A stretch of DNA of 64,000 nucleotides, from contig JACOEL010000008.1 in NCBI GenBank assembly GCA_024998625.1, positions 1-64,000 of the forward strand, in the 5' to 3' direction. The DNA is from Nitrospira sp. (GTDB lineage Bacteria > Nitrospirota > Nitrospiria > Nitrospirales > Nitrospiraceae). The notes beneath the pieces were generated by a model. The model searched no databases. It saw only the letters and a program-made list of their open reading frames with translations, and was not told the origin of the DNA. Made by a program: the position numbers and the translations under genes. Shown here one piece after another: positions 20,403 to 63,895 of this stretch; position 1 is the first letter of the stretch; each line of letters begins with the position of its first letter.

Positions 20403-22739
20403 ATGGCACGAGCGCACGATTCAGAAAAATACGAGCTCTCTGACGCGGAAAAGCGCGGCCTCATCAAGCTCATCGAGCAGGGCAAGCCGTTGCCGGAGAA
20501 GTACCGGTTTCTGCTGTTTGCCGACAAGCGCGAAGTCGAACTCGTCTGGAACGGCAAATCCCGCGAAGTCTGCACCGCCGTCCTGCCCTTTCAAACGCTG
20601 GAACACATCGACGAGCCTCGGAAAGAACAGCGCGGTGATGGGGAATTAGACCTTGATATGGGCGGGCGGCAGGTCAAGGGCTGGACCAATAAGCTCATCT
20701 GGGGCGATAACAAGCTGATTCTCTCCTCCCTCAAGGCCGGGGCGCTTCGACGCCAGATCGAGGAGGCCGGCGGCCTCAAGCTTATTTACATCGACCCACC
20801 CTTCGACGTGGGCGCGGATTTCAGCATGGACATCGAGATCGGCGGCGAGACCTTCCACAAGGAGCCGAATCTTCTGGAGCAGATTGCCTACCGCGACACC
20901 TGGGGACGCGGCGCGGATTCCTTCATCGCCATGATTTACGAACGCCTCATCCTCATGCGTGATTTGATGCACAGCGACGGCAGCATTTACGTGCATACAG
21001 GCCCGAATGTAAATCATCATATGCGAGCAGTTCTCTCTGAGGTGTTTGGCCCGGACAAATTTGAGAGAGAAATAATTTGGCAGCGAGTGTCAGCGCGTAG
21101 CCATGGCACTTACTATCCAGCAACTCACGATTCCATTCTGTTTTGTAGGCGAGGCGACCGAGCTGTCTGGAATCAGCAATACACACCAGTCAGAGATGAA
21201 CTTGTAGAATCCCACTACAACAATGTTGAAGAGGGGTCGGGGCGAAAGTTTACGCTCGACAATTGTTTGAATCAGAATCCGGACAGGCCGAACCTCCGCT
21301 ATGAGCTTAACGGTCACGTTCGGACTTGGAGGTGGACCAAGGATAGGATGGACGCGCTAATCAAAGAAGGCAGAGTAGTGTTCACGTCTTCAGGGATGCC
21401 GAGGTTCAAACGTTATCTGGATGAGTCGAAGGGGGTTCCGCTGCAATCAATTTGGTCGGACATCAAGCCAGTCAATTCGCAGGCCGGTCAGGACACAGGC
21501 TATAGCACTCAAAAGCCAGAGGATATGTTAGAGCGAGTTATCCTTTCCTCATCGAACCCAAATGATTTAGTGGCGGACTTTTTCTGCGGCAGCGGCACGA
21601 CGGCTGCCGTGGCGGAAAAGCTGGGGCGCAAATGGATCGCCACCGACCTCGGCAAGTTCGGCATTCACACGACGCGTAAGCGGCTCATCCAAGTGCAGCG
21701 CGAGTTGAAAGCCAACGGCAAACCGTTCCGCGCTTTCGAAGTGCTGAACCTTGGCCGCTACGAACGCCAGGCCTATCTCAACGTCGCCGGGCGGCTGACT
21801 GGCAAACAGAAAGAACAGGCGCTCGCGAAGAAGGAGGCAGAGTTCCGTGAACTGATCCTGAAGGCCTACCGGGCCGAGCCGTTGCCCGATACGGGATTTT
21901 TCCACGGCAAGCAGAGTGGGCGTTTGGTCGTGGTCGGCCCGATCAACCTGCCGGTCGGGCGACTCTTCATTGAAGAAGTCATCACGGAATGCCGCAAGCG
22001 CAGCGCCTCCCGTGTGGACGTGCTTGCCTTCGAGTTCGAGATGGGGCTGTTCCCCGCCGTGCTGGAGGAGGCGAAACAGAAGGGCATCGATCTGGCGCCC
22101 AAGACCATCCCACCGGAGGTCTTCGACAAACGCGCCGTCGAAAAGGGCCAGGTCCGGTTCCACGACGTGGCCTATATCGAAGTCACGCCGCGATTCGACA
22201 AGAAAGACACACTCACGCTTTCGGTGGAGCTGACGGATTTCTCGGTCTATTACTCGCAGGGGCTGGTGGACTCCATCGCCGCCGAGTTGAAGGAAGGCAA
22301 GAGCGAGGTCGTCTGTGAGTCCGGCAAGCTCATTAAGATCAGCAAGGACAAGCAGGGCGTCGTGACCCGCGACATGCTCACGAAGCAATGGACCGACTGG
22401 GTGGACTACTGGGCGGTGGATTTCAACTATGAGAGCAGAAAGGAAATCATCAAGGTGTCCCGTGGCACCGGCCTTGGCGGCGTGCAGGGCTTTCTACCGG
22501 GACAGGAACCGGCGCAACGCGACCTCGATCTCACGGCCGACGACTTCGAGGAACGCTGGACCGGCGCCTACATCTTCGAGAACGAATGGCAGAGCTTCCG
22601 CACGCGCCAGAGCCGAGACCTGGAGTTGAAGACGGCAACCCACACCTACGACAAACCTGGCCGCTACATCGTCGCCGTCAAAGTCATCGACATCTTCGGC
22701 AACGACACGATGACACTCATGCCGGTGACAGTCGGATAG
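20403..22739 (+). CDS. mod: Type III adenine-N6 DNA methyltransferase Mod subunit
   Basis: A 778-residue methylase that protects DNA from the Res partner and supplies its target specificity. The catalytic DPPF (residue ~130) comes before the SAM-binding DFFCGSGTT (residue ~393), the beta-class order, with the target-recognition region between them. That region (roughly bases 21000-21580) is visibly richer in A and T than the flanks, as if exchanged. The C-terminal ~370 residues are an extension typical of large Mod subunits. It is separated from fic by about 140 bases holding repeated GGGTA sites, so it may have its own promoter. Confidence 0.9.
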   Translation: MARAHDSEKYELSDAEKRGLIKLIEQGKPLPEKYRFLLFADKREVELVWNGKSREVCTAVLPFQTLEHIDEPRKEQRGDGELDLDMGGRQVKGWTNKLIWGDNKLILSSLKAGALRRQIEEAGGLKLIYIDPPFDVGADFSMDIEIGGETFHKEPNLLEQIAYRDTWGRGADSFIAMIYERLILMRDLMHSDGSIYVHTGPNVNHHMRAVLSEVFGPDKFEREIIWQRVSARSHGTYYPATHDSILFCRRGDRAVWNQQYTPVRDELVESHYNNVEEGSGRKFTLDNCLNQNPDRPNLRYELNGHVRTWRWTKDRMDALIKEGRVVFTSSGMPRFKRYLDESKGVPLQSIWSDIKPVNSQAGQDTGYSTQKPEDMLERVILSSSNPNDLVADFFCGSGTTAAVAEKLGRKWIATDLGKFGIHTTRKRLIQVQRELKANGKPFRAFEVLNLGRYERQAYLNVAGRLTGKQKEQALAKKEAEFRELILKAYRAEPLPDTGFFHGKQSGRLVVVGPINLPVGRLFIEEVITECRKRSASRVDVLAFEFEMGLFPAVLEEAKQKGIDLAPKTIPPEVFDKRAVEKGQVRFHDVAYIEVTPRFDKKDTLTLSVELTDFSVYYSQGLVDSIAAELKEGKSEVVCESGKLIKISKDKQGVVTRDMLTKQWTDWVDYWAVDFNYESRKEIIKVSRGTGLGGVQGFLPGQEPAQRDLDLTADDFEERWTGAYIFENEWQSFRTRQSRDLELKTATHTYDKPGRYIVAVKVIDIFGNDTMTLMPVTVG

Positions 22740-23992: not shown

Positions 23993-24118
23993 ATGCGCTT
24001 CATCCACGCCTCCGACCTCCATATCGACAGTCCCTTGCGCGGCCTCGACCGCTTCGACGCCGCGCCGGTTGGACGGAGGCTCTGTTTTACCATTAACACC
24101 AATATTGATGTTGCATGA
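23993..24118 (+). pseudogene. Truncated 5' end of an SbcD/YhaO-like gene
   Basis: The first 28 codons (MRFIHASDLHIDSPLRGLDR) match the start of the intact metallophosphoesterase gene at 26140 with mostly synonymous differences. After GAPV/AAPV the similarity stops and the frame runs into unrelated sequence, ending at 24118. The stop overlaps the first codons of the following toxin gene. This is a fragment of a diverged second copy or allele, cut at about 24070, not a working gene. Confidence 0.75.
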
Positions 24119-24474
24119 GCATGGAATTCACGGTAGAGTTCTACGAGACTGAGTCCGGTACTTGCCCGGTTCGGGAGTTTCTGGATGATCTCAAGTCAAG
24201 CGATCCCGACGACTTCGCCGCTGTGCTGGCCGGGTTGGCGAAATTGAGGAACCGGCAGTATCACCGCGAGCCGCTGTCGAAAGCGCTCGACGATGAACTC
24301 TTTGAGTTGCGACACGTGGGCAAGCTCAACACCAGGGTGTTGTGGTTCTTTATGAATAATCGCAGGATTATCGCCGTGCATGGCATCCGGAATAAAGGCC
24401 GTGCCATTCCGTCCCGGGATCTCGCCACGGCACGGGAGCGCATGCGTGATTGGTGGAGGAGGGTGCAGTCATGA
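24115..24474 (+). CDS. HigB/RelE-like toxin (phage Gp49-like)
   Basis: The 119-residue protein (MSMEFTVEFYETESGTCPVR) shows the HigB/Gp49 pattern: VREFLDDL, then LDDELFELRHVGKLNTRVLW with FFMNNRRIIAVHGIRNKG, typical of the RelE-fold ribonuclease group. It is followed, with an ATGA overlap, by an XRE-type antitoxin. The toxin-first order is typical of HigBA. ATG 24121 is an alternative start. The gene begins at the break of the sbcD-like fragment. Confidence 0.85.
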   Translation: MSMEFTVEFYETESGTCPVREFLDDLKSSDPDDFAAVLAGLAKLRNRQYHREPLSKALDDELFELRHVGKLNTRVLWFFMNNRRIIAVHGIRNKGRAIPSRDLATARERMRDWWRRVQS

Positions 24475-24857
24475 AAGCGACGAATTTTGATCGCTATTTG
24501 AAAGAACAATTGACCGATCCGGCCTTTGCTCGCCGGTTCAAGCAGGCGGGGCAGGCCTGGGATGTGGCGTTGCAGATTGCGGCGCTCCGGCAGCGTGCCG
24601 GGTTGTCACAGAAGGAGTTGGCGCGACGGGTCAAGACTTCGCAGCAGCAGATTTGCCGTCTGGAGTCTCCGGACTATGAGGGCCACTCCTTGAGCATGCT
24701 GCGCCGCGTGGCGCGTGAGTTGAGCGCCAGAGTCCGCGTCGTGATCGAGCCGGAGGAAATTGCAGCGGCCACCGGCATGGCCGAAACACCCGCCCTCTAT
24801 CGTACCAGACGGGCCCGGTCCAGCCGATCAGCCCGCGCCCCAAAAACCCGGAATTGA
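24471..24857 (+). CDS. HigA-like XRE-family antitoxin
   Basis: The 128-residue protein contains a helix-turn-helix of the XRE type: IAALRQRAGLSQKELARRVK followed by TSQQQICRLESPDY. It starts inside the stop codon of the toxin gene (ATGA), a standard translational coupling. It should neutralise the toxin and repress the operon by DNA binding. The Arg/Ser-rich tail after residue 110 looks disordered. Confidence 0.85.
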   Translation: MKATNFDRYLKEQLTDPAFARRFKQAGQAWDVALQIAALRQRAGLSQKELARRVKTSQQQICRLESPDYEGHSLSMLRRVARELSARVRVVIEPEEIAAATGMAETPALYRTRRARSSRSARAPKTRN

Positions 24858-24919: not shown

Positions 24920-25507
24920 TTACCCTCCGCACTGCTCCCCGCTTGATGCCTCACAGGAACAATCCAGACAACCATGGATGGAACAGGTGCCGCAGGCCTG
25001 TTCGATCCGGCGACGTAGCGCGGCCCTGGCTCGATGCACGCGAACCGCCGCATTTTCGGCGGTGATGCCTGACTGCTGAGCGAGGTCTTTCAGCTTTCCT
25101 TCCTCCAGATCCACGATCCGCAGGGCGTCGCGATATTCCGGCTTGAGCGTCTCCAGAAGGCCCGAGACACATCGGCAGATCTCCTGCCGCAGCTCCGCCT
25201 CAGGCTCCTGCACATCCGGGAATTCCCGCCCCCAGGCTTCCATCGCTCGCGCAGTGGTGGACCGCTGTCGGTAGTGATCGATCACGGCATTGCGGAGCAC
25301 CCGATAGAACCAGGCGACAACTTTTTCGTCCTTCACGTCGCTCCCGCGTTCCAATCCGCGTGTAAAGGCCGTCTGTAAAATATCTTCTGCCACGGCGCGA
25401 GATTCCACGCGCCGTTCCAGGAAGGCCAGGAACTCACGGTGTCCCTTCACCAGTTGCGCAACGGCTTCCGGCGAGAGAGCTGTTGAGGGGTTTGATTCGA
25501 GGTTCAT
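24920..25507 (-). CDS. ECF RNA polymerase sigma factor with Cys-rich tail
   Basis: The 195-residue sigma-70-family factor has region 2 (FLERRVESRAVAEDILQTAF, VVAWFYRVLRNAVIDHYRQR) and region 4 (GKLKDLAQQSGITAENAAVR and RARAALRRRI). There is no sigma 3 domain, as in ECF factors. After region 4 comes a short tail with CGTCSIHGCLDCSC and a final Cys, an unusual extension that could bind metal or sense redox state. No anti-sigma gene is next to it. It is divergent from the metallothionein-like gene, with 106 bases between starts. Confidence 0.88.
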   Translation of the reverse strand: MNLESNPSTALSPEAVAQLVKGHREFLAFLERRVESRAVAEDILQTAFTRGLERGSDVKDEKVVAWFYRVLRNAVIDHYRQRSTTARAMEAWGREFPDVQEPEAELRQEICRCVSGLLETLKPEYRDALRIVDLEEGKLKDLAQQSGITAENAAVRVHRARAALRRRIEQACGTCSIHGCLDCSCEASSGEQCGG

Positions 25508-25538
25508 GGGGGCAGCTTACCAAACTGTGCGCAGAACT

Positions 25539-25563
25539 GTAAGGTTTCTGGGAGATCTCCGTC
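25539..25563 (+). promoter_or_regulatory. Candidate ECF-type promoter for the metallothionein-like gene
   Basis: GTAAGG (25539-25544) and CGTC (25560-25563) are separated by 15 bases, close to the GTAAC/CGTC pattern of many ECF promoters. They lie about 50 bases upstream of the ATG at 25614. No sigma-70-like boxes were obvious there. The adjacent sigma factor is the natural candidate to read it. Confidence 0.4.
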
Positions 25564-25613
25564 AGCCTCTGTGACGACGCAATCACGCGTCGGCATCTCA
25601 AAGGAGACTCACC

Positions 25614-25775
25614 ATGGCCGAAGTGAAAAAGTCCACCGCGCAGAAGATTGCCAAGACAAGCTGTTGCGGAACGTGCGAATGCGCATCCTGTTCCTGCGGA
25701 TGCCAGGCAAACGCCTGTCGTTGCGAGCCAATCAACTGCCAATGTGGTTGCCGCAAGCAAACCGCCGGTCGGTAG
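25614..25775 (+). CDS. Metallothionein-like 12-cysteine peptide
   Basis: A 53-residue peptide starts MAEVKKSTAQKIAKT and then carries 12 cysteines in CC, CxC and CxxC groups: CCGTCECASCSCGC, then ACRCEP and NCQCGC, ending in a short basic tail. Such clustering is the hallmark of metallothioneins that hold Zn, Cu or Cd in thiolate clusters. It does not obviously match the SmtA or MymT families and has no His ligands. AAAGGAGA precedes the ATG at good spacing. The gene is short and easily missed by automatic calling. A GC-rich hairpin just after the stop would end the transcript. Confidence 0.75.
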   Translation: MAEVKKSTAQKIAKTSCCGTCECASCSCGCQANACRCEPINCQCGCRKQTAGR

Positions 25776-25785
25776 GGCAGTTGTG

Positions 25786-25814
25786 CCCCGCCCGCCGGAT
25801 TGTGGCGGGCGGGG
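25786..25814 (+). terminator. GC-rich hairpin after the metallothionein-like gene
   Basis: CCCCGCCCGCC (25786-25796) and GGCGGGCGGGG (25804-25814) form a perfect 11-bp stem with a 7-base loop, ten bases after the stop codon. There is no clear run of T after it, so it is a weak intrinsic terminator or an RNA-stabilising hairpin. Confidence 0.55.
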
Positions 25815-26139
25815 TCACAGATTTCGACAGGCAGGGGCATGTGTGCCGGCGATGTCTCTGGGCTTCTTGTGGGTCTTGCTCGGCTGAGGCATATTCCTCT
25901 CCAATGCATTGGCTTTCCTGATTCTTCCCGGCTTTGTCATGTATATGAAACGTTTCCAAATCGAACCGGAGGAAAGGATGCTTACCAACCTATTCGGTTA
26001 GGCATTCGTGGCCTATGCGACTCGAGTGCGACGATGGAGATGATGTGGTATATGAGGGATCGTATATTGACTCGAATTGCCTTGGCGGTAGGCCGCTTCG
26101 ATTGACACTTCTCGATGAAACCGGCGGGACCTAATTCTC
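25815..26139. other. 325-base stretch without a supported gene
   Basis: The stretch between the hairpin and the sbcD-like start holds no recognised gene. A 39-codon frame (26015-26134) encodes an acidic peptide starting MRLECDDGDDVVYEG, but it has no ribosome-binding site and no known relatives, so it is not called. The promoter of the nuclease pair probably lies here. Confidence 0.45.
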
Positions 26140-60875: not shown

Positions 60876-61298
60876 TTATACAGGTGCTCGGACCTGCGGT
60901 TAAACAAAACGGTCTTTGATGAATCGATGCACTCGGAATTTCCACACTAAGCCAAAGAACTCGAAAAAATAGGGCATCTTGGCTCATCATTTGTTAAACC
61001 CATCATCGGCTAACCTCTCACACCAGGGGAGACGCAACTTGGTGCGGCTGGAGTATGGTTAGGCCATCTGCTGGACTGAACCCCGCCTTAGGAAATAAAG
61101 TGTCGACCCCACCATGAGTCCATTTATTGCCTCAGTCGATGCAGAGACCTTCTGCCGATCACGGCCTGTCCACTCCCATTTCTTCTTCAAAAGACCCGCA
61201 CTGTAATGTTTTGGCTTCGTCTCCGTCTATAGGGTTGTACGAGCGATTTGATGAGCATGGGGCTCAGTCCATTCGTTCACTAAACTCGGGGGGCCATC
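60876..61298. other. 423-base stretch before copZ, no gene
   Basis: A plus-strand frame from 61127 overlaps copZ and is not coding-like. The stretch should hold the copper-operon promoter; no clear CueR or CsoR operator was identified. The A/T-rich accessory composition fades into GC-rich core DNA here. Confidence 0.4.
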
Positions 61299-61517
61299 AT
61301 GAAAGATTTGATTTTGAAAATAGACGGAATGAGCTGCGGGCACTGTGTTGGACAGGTTACGAAGGTGCTGACCCAACTTGATGGCGTGCAAGTCAAGGCC
61401 GTTAAAGTTGGTGAGGCCTTTGTGGCGTACGATCCGGGAGAAATTACACCGGCGGACATCGCGAGGGCGGTAAACGAGGTGGGGTATGAGGCCGAGCCGG
61501 CCGGGAGGGTTGCATGA
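61299..61517 (+). CDS. copZ: Copper chaperone CopZ-like HMA protein
   Basis: The 72-residue heavy-metal-associated domain has the metal-binding GMSCGHC near the N-terminus and the betaalphabeta pattern ([34 protein letters not shown]). It would carry Cu(I) to the ATPase encoded next. It overlaps copA by four bases. The HCVGQV part and lack of His tail fit CopZ. Confidence 0.88.
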
Positions 61518-63895
61518 ACAAGGTCGCTTTGTTGGAGCAGAAGGTTGCCCGACCTGTCAGTACGGAGGCTTCTGAGGCTATACAGCTTCGGAGGGTGACG
61601 ATTCCAGTCCAGGGCATGACCTGCGCCGCTTGCCAGAGCCGCGTCCAGCGGGCGGTGCAGAGAGAAGCAGGGGTTTTCGATGCGTCCGTCCATCTCATGT
61701 TGAAGCAGGCCGTCATCACCTATGACTCCGCCGTCACTTCGGAGGCATCGTTAGTGGAGGCGATCAACCGGACGGGGTATGAAGCCAAACCGGCGACTCA
61801 GAGCCCAAGCTCCTTCGATGATCAGCTAGGACAGGATCGGGCACAGGAAGAAGAATACCTTCTGGCGCGGCGTAAGGCTTTGTGGAGCGGCGCCGCCGGC
61901 CTGTTGGCGATGGCGTTATCAATGCCGCTCATGGTGGGGGGTGAACCAGATAGTCATGCAGTCGGCTTCTTCATGCTTTTAATAATGAAGGTCGCCTCCT
62001 GGCTGTCGTTCGCGACTCCAGTCGTTTGGTCCTACGTTCTGATGGGGCTCACGATAGCGGTGATGGGGTCGAGCGGGCGGCATTTTTATGTGCGGGCCTG
62101 GTCTGCGCTTCGGCATCGCGCTGCTGATATGAATACGCTGATTGCGGTGGGAACCGGCGCGGCCTTTGTCCATTCCGTCCTGGCCACTGTCATTCCCGAG
62201 TTCTTCTTGAATCACGGTGTCAGGCCGCATGTCTATTACGAAGCCGTGGTGATGATTATTGCTCTGATTCAGACGGGGCATACGCTGGAAGTCCGTGCCA
62301 AGCGACAGACCTCGGCTGCCCTGAGTCGGTTAGTGGCATTGCAACCCAGGACGGCTCGCGTTGTGCGCGAGACCGTCGAGATTGATGTGCCCGTCGAAGC
62401 CGTGCGGAGCGGAGACATTGTTGTGATCCGGCCGGGCGAGCGAATCGCCGTGGACGGCCACATTCTGTCCGGCAAGAGTAGCGTCGATGAATCCATGTTG
62501 ACCGGTGAAGCGATGCCGGTAGAGAAGCAGTTGGGGGATCGGGTTATTGGTGGCACGATTAACAAGTCCGGCGCGTTCCGCTATCAGGCGACCACGGTGG
62601 GCGCAGACAGCGTGCTGGCCCATATCGTCAAGCTGATGCGGGATGCACAAGGCTCCCGAGCGCCGATCCAAAAACTGGCCGACCAAGTCAGCGCGGTCTT
62701 CGTGCCGATCGTGATGTCTCTGGCGCTTGCGACCTTCGTGGCCTGGTATGTCGCGGTGGATCAGGCGTCTGCGATGCAAGCGTTCTCTGCGGCCATAGCT
62801 GTGCTGATCATTGCGTGCCCTTGCGCCATGGGACTCGCGGTACCCACGGCAATGATGGTGGCAACGGGAAGAGGGGCAGAGCAGGGCATCTTGATCAAAG
62901 GTGGAGAAGCGCTGCAGCGGGCCGCTGGGATTACCACGGTGGTCCTCGACAAGACAGGCACGATCACGGAGGGAAAACCGGCTGTCACCGATGTAATCCG
63001 GGCCAAGGGCAGTAAGTGGTCCGATCGTGAATTTCTTCGTCTCGTGGCCTCCTTGGAGGCCTTGTCGGAACATCCTGTAGCGGAAGCGATCGTATCTGCG
63101 GCCCGAGAGCAGATGCTTCCTTTGGCTGAGGTGGAATCCTTCGAGTCCATGGCCGGGAGAGGGGCCATAGGTGTGGTAGAAGGTGCAGCGATCCTTGTTG
63201 GGAATAAAGGTCTGATGTCCGACTATGCGGTCTCGTTGGAATCGTTCGTTGACCAAGCCGACCGGTTCGCCAGAGCAGGAAAGACGCCGGTATATGTAGC
63301 CGTCAACGGCAAGCTGACTGGACTTGTTGCGGTGGCTGACCCTATCAAGGGAACGTCACACGAGGCAATCAGACAGCTTAAACAAATGGGATTAACTGTT
63401 GTCATGCTGAGCGGCGATCACGAGCGAACAGCGCAGGCTGTGGCGAGCCAGGTCGGCGTCGATCGGATCGTGGCGGGGGTGTTGCCGGAGGGTAAGGTGG
63501 CGGAGATCCGGCGTCTGCGTGAGGCGGGGGAGGTCGTCGCCATGGTGGGAGACGGTATTAACGATGCGCCGGCGCTAGCACAGGCCGACGTGGGAATGGC
63601 CATTGGGACGGGCACAGATATCGCGATCGAGGCGAGTGATGTCACACTCATGCGAGGCGACCTGCGAGGAGTCGCCTCGGCGATCAGACTTGCCAAGAAG
63701 ACGATGCTCGTGATGAAGCAGAATTTGTTCTGGGCGTTTATTTATAACGTGGTTGGTATTCCTATCGCGGCCGGTGCGTTGTATCCGTTCACGGGTCTGA
63801 TGTTAAGTCCTGTACTGGCGAGCGCAACAATGGCCTTCAGCTCCGTCAGCGTCGTCATGAACAGCCTACGGCTACGGAGAGTGCAGATAAACTGA
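61514..63895 (+). CDS. copA: Copper-exporting P-type ATPase CopA
   Basis: The 793-residue P1B-type ATPase has one N-terminal HMA domain (GMTCAAC, residue ~36). TGEAMP is in the actuator domain, the Cu-binding CPC in [11 protein letters not shown], phosphorylation DKTGTITEG, the HP motif LSEHPVAEA, and [11 protein letters not shown]. The CPC and downstream motifs indicate Cu(I) (or Ag(I)) export. The start overlaps copZ. Usual CopA often has two HMA domains; the separate CopZ may compensate. Confidence 0.93.

Follow-up and report, generated by a model that had tools for sequence, protein, structure and literature searches.

The question raised by this locus is whether a sigma factor and a small Cys-rich peptide that are encoded back to back in a Nitrospira genome belong to one regulatory system and, if so, what signal that system would answer. 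In the window, by which we mean the whole 64,000-nucleotide stretch analysed, the gene for a 195-residue ECF sigma factor lies on the minus strand (24920..25507), and an ORF for a 53-residue metallothionein-like peptide with 12 Cys, six CxC motifs and no His lies on the plus strand (25614..25775), their start codons lying 106 bp apart. An earlier note had described an ECF sigma factor and a 12-Cys, 53-residue peptide 106 bases apart, and its coordinates, strands and Cys count were borne out; it had also placed the Cys-rich tail of the sigma factor facing the peptide gene, whereas the tail is actually encoded at that end of the sigma gene which lies away from the peptide gene. The pair is probably a copper-responsive, CorE-like one-component switch with its own metallothionein, as judged by sequence comparison from the architecture of the sigma factor, the conservation of the pair, the family promoter and the place of that promoter before copper genes. 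That the proteins bind metal, that the signal is copper, that the sigma factor itself transcribes these genes and what role the peptide has, we infer by analogy with CorE and from the set of genes involved.

The earlier note had suggested a search for the same divergent pair in other genomes, and the pair is present in 20 of the 29 genomes of the genus Nitrospira. Sigma factor and peptide occur together, divergently, in the same 20 genomes (one of which, G012, is counted as a carrier with its peptide gene cut by a contig end), and neither occurs in the remaining nine. The arrangement with about 106 bp between the start codons is nearly fixed across the carriers, and the sigma orthologues in the 20 genomes are 84-95% identical. 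The sigma gene is frameshifted in the drafts G010 and G012, which reflects either sequencing error or decay. The sigma-metallothionein pair is thus real and conserved, beyond chance.

The 53-residue ORF is a real coding gene, since its dN/dS is 0.18 (171 pairs) and all 12 Cys are invariant while their codons switch synonymously between TGT and TGC. The window holds one ORF of 30-80 residues with at least 12 Cys, against 0.01 expected per simulated 64-kb window. The gene is preceded by a conserved ribosome-binding site, AAAGGAG (25600..25606, plus strand), and followed by a strong hairpin (25781..25820, plus strand; fold z-score -3.2) that is a possible terminator lacking a T run. By its sequence the peptide may bind several metal ions as a functional metallothionein. 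It matched no Pfam or NCBIfam family at E values up to 1, the metallothionein models included; no relatives were found in other genera, neither in the sample of the order nor among 296 genomes that represent 135 genera of the phylum, nor among viral contigs and plasmids; and the single match among solved structures was meaningless. There was no convincing case of a metallothionein adjoining other sigma genes of the family with a C-terminal Cys-rich domain (CRD) among the loci examined; near one family sigma a 56-residue ORF with 8 Cys (L098, 5795-5965) lacks the family promoter described below.

The sigma factor contains sigma2 and sigma4 as its only sigma domains (Pfam Sigma70_r2 and Sigma70_r4_2, both above cut-off), and the ORF ends ...ACGTCSIHGCLDCSCEASSGEQCGG, so that the earlier description of a Cys-rich C-terminus was correct. 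The CRD sigma factors were defined on CorE of Myxococcus xanthus, whose tail Cys stand at positions 181, 184, 189, 192, 194 and 206, four of the six being invariant in the CRD group (PMC3107203). The tail of the window sigma spans residues 172-193 (24929..24994, minus strand) with Cys at 172, 175, 180, 183, 185 and 193; the first five are spaced identically to those of CorE, and C172, C175, C183 and C185, which are invariant in the family alignment, correspond at an offset of 9 to CorE 181, 184, 192 and 194. A CxC motif between sigma2 and sigma4 is the second hallmark of CorE-like sigma factors (PMC8999054, PMC10141476). It is present here as C111-R-C113 (25169..25177, minus strand), with both Cys invariant among the aligned relatives, and is the signature of the former ECF44. 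By the linker CxC and the spacing of the tail Cys, the sigma factor belongs with the CorE-like factors (formerly ECF44, today part of ECF238). No anti-sigma factor is encoded among the neighbouring genes of the sigma gene, and the Cys-rich tail is probably the sensor, working together with the linker CxC. An AlphaFold2 prediction of the sigma factor with 13 close orthologues (mean pLDDT 46.5) was too poor to place the CxC near the tail. Identification as SigZ was considered and rejected, because the NCBIfam SigZ model scored 100 bits against a cut-off of 168.65 and the tail is unlike that of a SigZ-like sigma; in the family alignment, neither the tail nor the linker CxC occurs in the SigZ-like sigma of this genome. 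The window sigma is the single CRD sigma in this genome.

The earlier note had pointed out a GTAAGG-15-CGTC pattern upstream of the peptide gene, and it is there: GTAAGG at 25539-25544, 15 bases, and CGTC at 25560-25563, reading into the peptide gene. The pattern sits within a footprint, CTGTAAGGTTT-N12-CGTC, that is conserved with minor variation in the 20 genomes and occurs once per genome, at this site only. We predict it to be a sigma-dependent metallothionein promoter of the form TGTAA-N17-CGTC (25538..25563, plus strand), a motif shared by the sigma family. Outside this clade, 32 matches to the motif lie near CRD sigma genes; they come from partly overlapping loci and are not 32 independent cases. 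Spacings of 8-24 other than 17 gave no match there. Within the order, the motif stands beside nearly all of the CorE-type relatives examined, and the genes behind it in the CorE-type Nitrospira relatives usually encode an HMA protein resembling CopZ, a P-type ATPase of the copper type with YHS and HMBD domains, or a DUF4396 membrane protein. No TGTAA-N17-CGTC reads into the sigma gene, as autoregulation by the family promoter would entail, and a promoter scan gave no sigma-70 promoter for it. Overlapping divergent promoters, with CTGACG-N18-TACAGT on the minus strand, were rejected, as 'CTGTAA' is common to the whole promoter family.

How far would the predicted regulon extend? The loose motif TGTAA-N17-CGTCW is not enriched, with seven sites in the 4.4-Mb genome against 12 for the reversed control. 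The stricter TGTAAKGTTT-N10-TCCGTC, a form picked after the sites had been seen, is shared by three of these seven, against 0.002 expected in the genome; they precede the metallothionein gene, a copZ-copA operon in the same window and a DUF4396 gene on another contig. The second promoter copy in the window (61202..61227, plus strand), 36 kb from the metallothionein gene, precedes a gene for a CopZ-like copper chaperone with an HMA domain (61299..61517, plus strand; NCBIfam CopZ models below their cut-offs, Pfam HMA for a relative) and one for a CopA-type copper-translocating P-type ATPase (61514..63895, plus strand; TIGR01511, 622 bits against a cut-off of 397, and Pfam). The motif lies at about the same place in 12/12 copZ genes and in 17/17 intact DUF4396 genes found in the genus; because all 17 intact copies carry the promoter, DUF4396 proteins may take part in handling copper. 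This second copy at 61202, the linker CxC and a leader hairpin add to what the earlier note had seen. In this genome the DUF4396 membrane-protein gene under the family promoter lies at L128:1572-2168 (contig 17). In G005 (L186, contig 53) the CRD sigma gene and the adjoining DUF4396 gene are both disrupted, the promoter motif of the latter has decayed, and this one genome has apparently lost the switch.

Copper is indicated as the signal because the same promoter precedes the copZ-copA and DUF4396 genes. There are two other candidate signals for the same kind of sensor. The switch could respond to Zn or Cd in the manner of CorE2, with the peptide acting as a Zn/Cd metallothionein, and metallothioneins often bind these two metals. 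CorE-type sigma factors accept several divalent metals, CorE itself also responding to Cd and Zn, which mimic Cu(II) (PMC3107203). CorE2 of M. xanthus, the Cd/Zn sigma, has the same family and general layout as the window sigma and differs, as cited in PMC9023288 and PMC8999054, in carrying one more Cys beside one of the tail Cys, a residue that sets its Cd/Zn specificity (PMC9023288). The residue after the second tail Cys is Ser176 in the window sigma and Ser or Ala in its orthologues, not Cys; because Ser stands where CorE2 has the extra Cys, the sigma factor would be of the CorE (copper) type. With the peptide also lacking His and the same promoter standing before a copper-type ATPase and CopZ, a Zn or Cd signal appears unlikely. 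The second candidate is thiol oxidation, where peroxide or disulfide stress would cause disulfides to form in the tail, with the peptide as a thiol buffer. Cys-rich tails can be redox-sensitive, but the predicted partners, copZ-copA here and the copper ATPase genes adjoining the sigma genes of relatives, are metal genes, and at the sites read the promoter was never followed by a gene for a thioredoxin or a peroxidase. CorE does tell the redox states of copper apart (PMC3107203), a point in favour of redox sensing, which we nevertheless regard as very unlikely as the signal. The earlier note had left the choice between a metal and an oxidant open, in a switch working without an anti-sigma factor. 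The switch itself accords with the metal-sensing type of tail, the lack of a neighbouring anti-sigma gene and the comparative evidence, and the oxidant option is the weaker one, since the promoter predicted to serve the metallothionein also precedes the copZ-copA and DUF4396 genes.

It is also conceivable that sigma factor and peptide are mere neighbours, with another sigma factor or a repressor controlling the metallothionein and the conserved intergenic sequence serving the sigma gene or a DNA-binding protein. The intergenic region is indeed conserved well beyond the promoter core, and in the drafts G002 and G026 the DUF4396 promoter is present with no CRD sigma detected; there another factor could read this promoter, or the sigma contig could be missing from the assembly. 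Within the intergenic sequence lies a covarying stem-loop in the metallothionein mRNA leader (25575..25592, plus strand), with a 6-bp stem and a 6-base loop directly after the expected transcription start, kept in the 20 genomes. Its stem is paired in 98.3% of the cells, against at most 49% in slid controls, and nine cells have changed on both sides. Read on the plus strand, the stem has ten G-U cells and one C-A cell, a pattern that fits an RNA structure in the metallothionein mRNA better than it fits a DNA operator or an element in the mRNA of the sigma gene. With G-U pairs that fit the metallothionein mRNA, strict co-occurrence of sigma factor and peptide in the genus, a motif whose orientation and spacing are right for the family, and the same motif before other copper genes, we consider a chance neighbourhood very unlikely. 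As for what the leader stem does, a role in mRNA stability is our guess.

We propose the following hypothetical model for the copper-responsive switch. Rising copper would bind the C-terminal Cys-rich tail, perhaps together with the linker CxC, and the copper-bound sigma factor would become active with no need of an anti-sigma factor. The active form would direct RNA polymerase to the TGTAA-N17-CGTC promoters, the predicted targets being the metallothionein gene, copZ-copA and the DUF4396 membrane-protein gene. The metallothionein would then act as a buffer for Cu(I) in the cytoplasm, with CopZ carrying the metal and CopA exporting it, and falling copper would switch the sigma factor off. The sigma tail and the metallothionein both have a CGTC start and CxC motifs. 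A bolder version, in which the metallothionein is the off-switch of the sigma factor by taking metal from its tail, the two genes form a closed loop and the leader hairpin sets the lifetime of the peptide mRNA, strikes us as decidedly unlikely.

The earlier note knew of no described system with this layout, which does not hold for the sigma half. This half is known as CorE-like, and already in 2011 NIDE1902 of Ca. Nitrospira defluvii was listed, as sequence only, among the sigma factors with a Cys-rich domain (PMC3107203). NIDE1902 is the orthologue of the window sigma by elimination, since the genome of Ca. N. defluvii has only one such sigma, and is 93% identical to it; the window itself comes from a Nitrospira closely related to Ca. 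N. defluvii. The word 'metallothionein' is absent from the main text of PMC3107203. The window sigma resembles CorE (MXAN_3426) in having sigma2 and sigma4 only, in the spacing of five tail Cys, in the linker CxC and in lacking an adjacent anti-sigma gene; CorE controls copper ATPase genes (PMC3107203), and such genes are among the targets predicted here. It differs in the spacing of the sixth Cys (C193, against C206 in CorE) and in its divergent neighbour, a metallothionein gene, whereas the neighbours of CorE are multicopper oxidase and efflux genes. OrbS of Burkholderia cenocepacia likewise carries a C-terminal Cys-rich metal sensor on board and has no anti-sigma factor, but it is inhibited by Fe(II), has another Cys spacing and belongs to group ECF243 (PMC9023288).

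As a small Cys-rich peptide predicted to bind metal in the cytoplasm and to be under metal control, the product of the divergent gene is comparable to MymT of Mycobacterium and SmtA of cyanobacteria. Those bacterial metallothioneins that have been described are, to our knowledge, under repressor control. SmtA is under the repressor SmtB, not under a sigma factor with its own sensor. The same is true of MymT, which is under the repressor RicR (PMC10141476). In the openly licensed papers searched we found no description of a metallothionein under an ECF sigma factor with an on-board sensor, and neither a metallothionein nor CopZ is named in a 2026 study on the copper genes of Nitrospira. The sigma type is already known from CorE, and the metallothionein family and its place in a copper response appear to be undescribed. 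If the model is true, a metallothionein would be switched on by a sigma factor carrying its own metal sensor, as opposed to repressor control. The CorE-like sigma factors, which have been studied experimentally in one organism, would gain a Nitrospira promoter, a compact predicted regulon and a prediction of copper as the signal. In wastewater and drinking-water plants Nitrospira is a central nitrifier, and copper there is at once a requirement and a poison.

A second type of CRD sigma, with a CorE2-like CC tail (CGPCCERNC), was seen at L086:16349-16975, L087:17230-17946 and L095:8169-8867 and is possibly a Cd/Zn counterpart. At the end of this sigma gene, both L086 and L087 have a promoter of the form TGTAATGC...AACGTCT; in L087 a 114-residue protein of no assigned family comes next. 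The flanking genes of the sigma-metallothionein pair are sbcD/sbcC-like genes and a toxin-antitoxin pair. At 23993-24857 of the window, a duplicated start of the sbcD-like gene is followed by the RelE/HigB-like and HTH toxin-antitoxin pair. In L034 and L044 this block occupies another position with respect to the sigma-metallothionein pair, an indication that it was inserted or rearranged recently. The Nitrospira region with the sigma, metallothionein and sbcD genes recurs at 87% identity on a contig filed under a Bryobacterales MAG (L040), which is probably a binning error. An N6/N4 DNA methylase gene (PF01555) at 20403-22739 of the window is perhaps part of a restriction-modification system.
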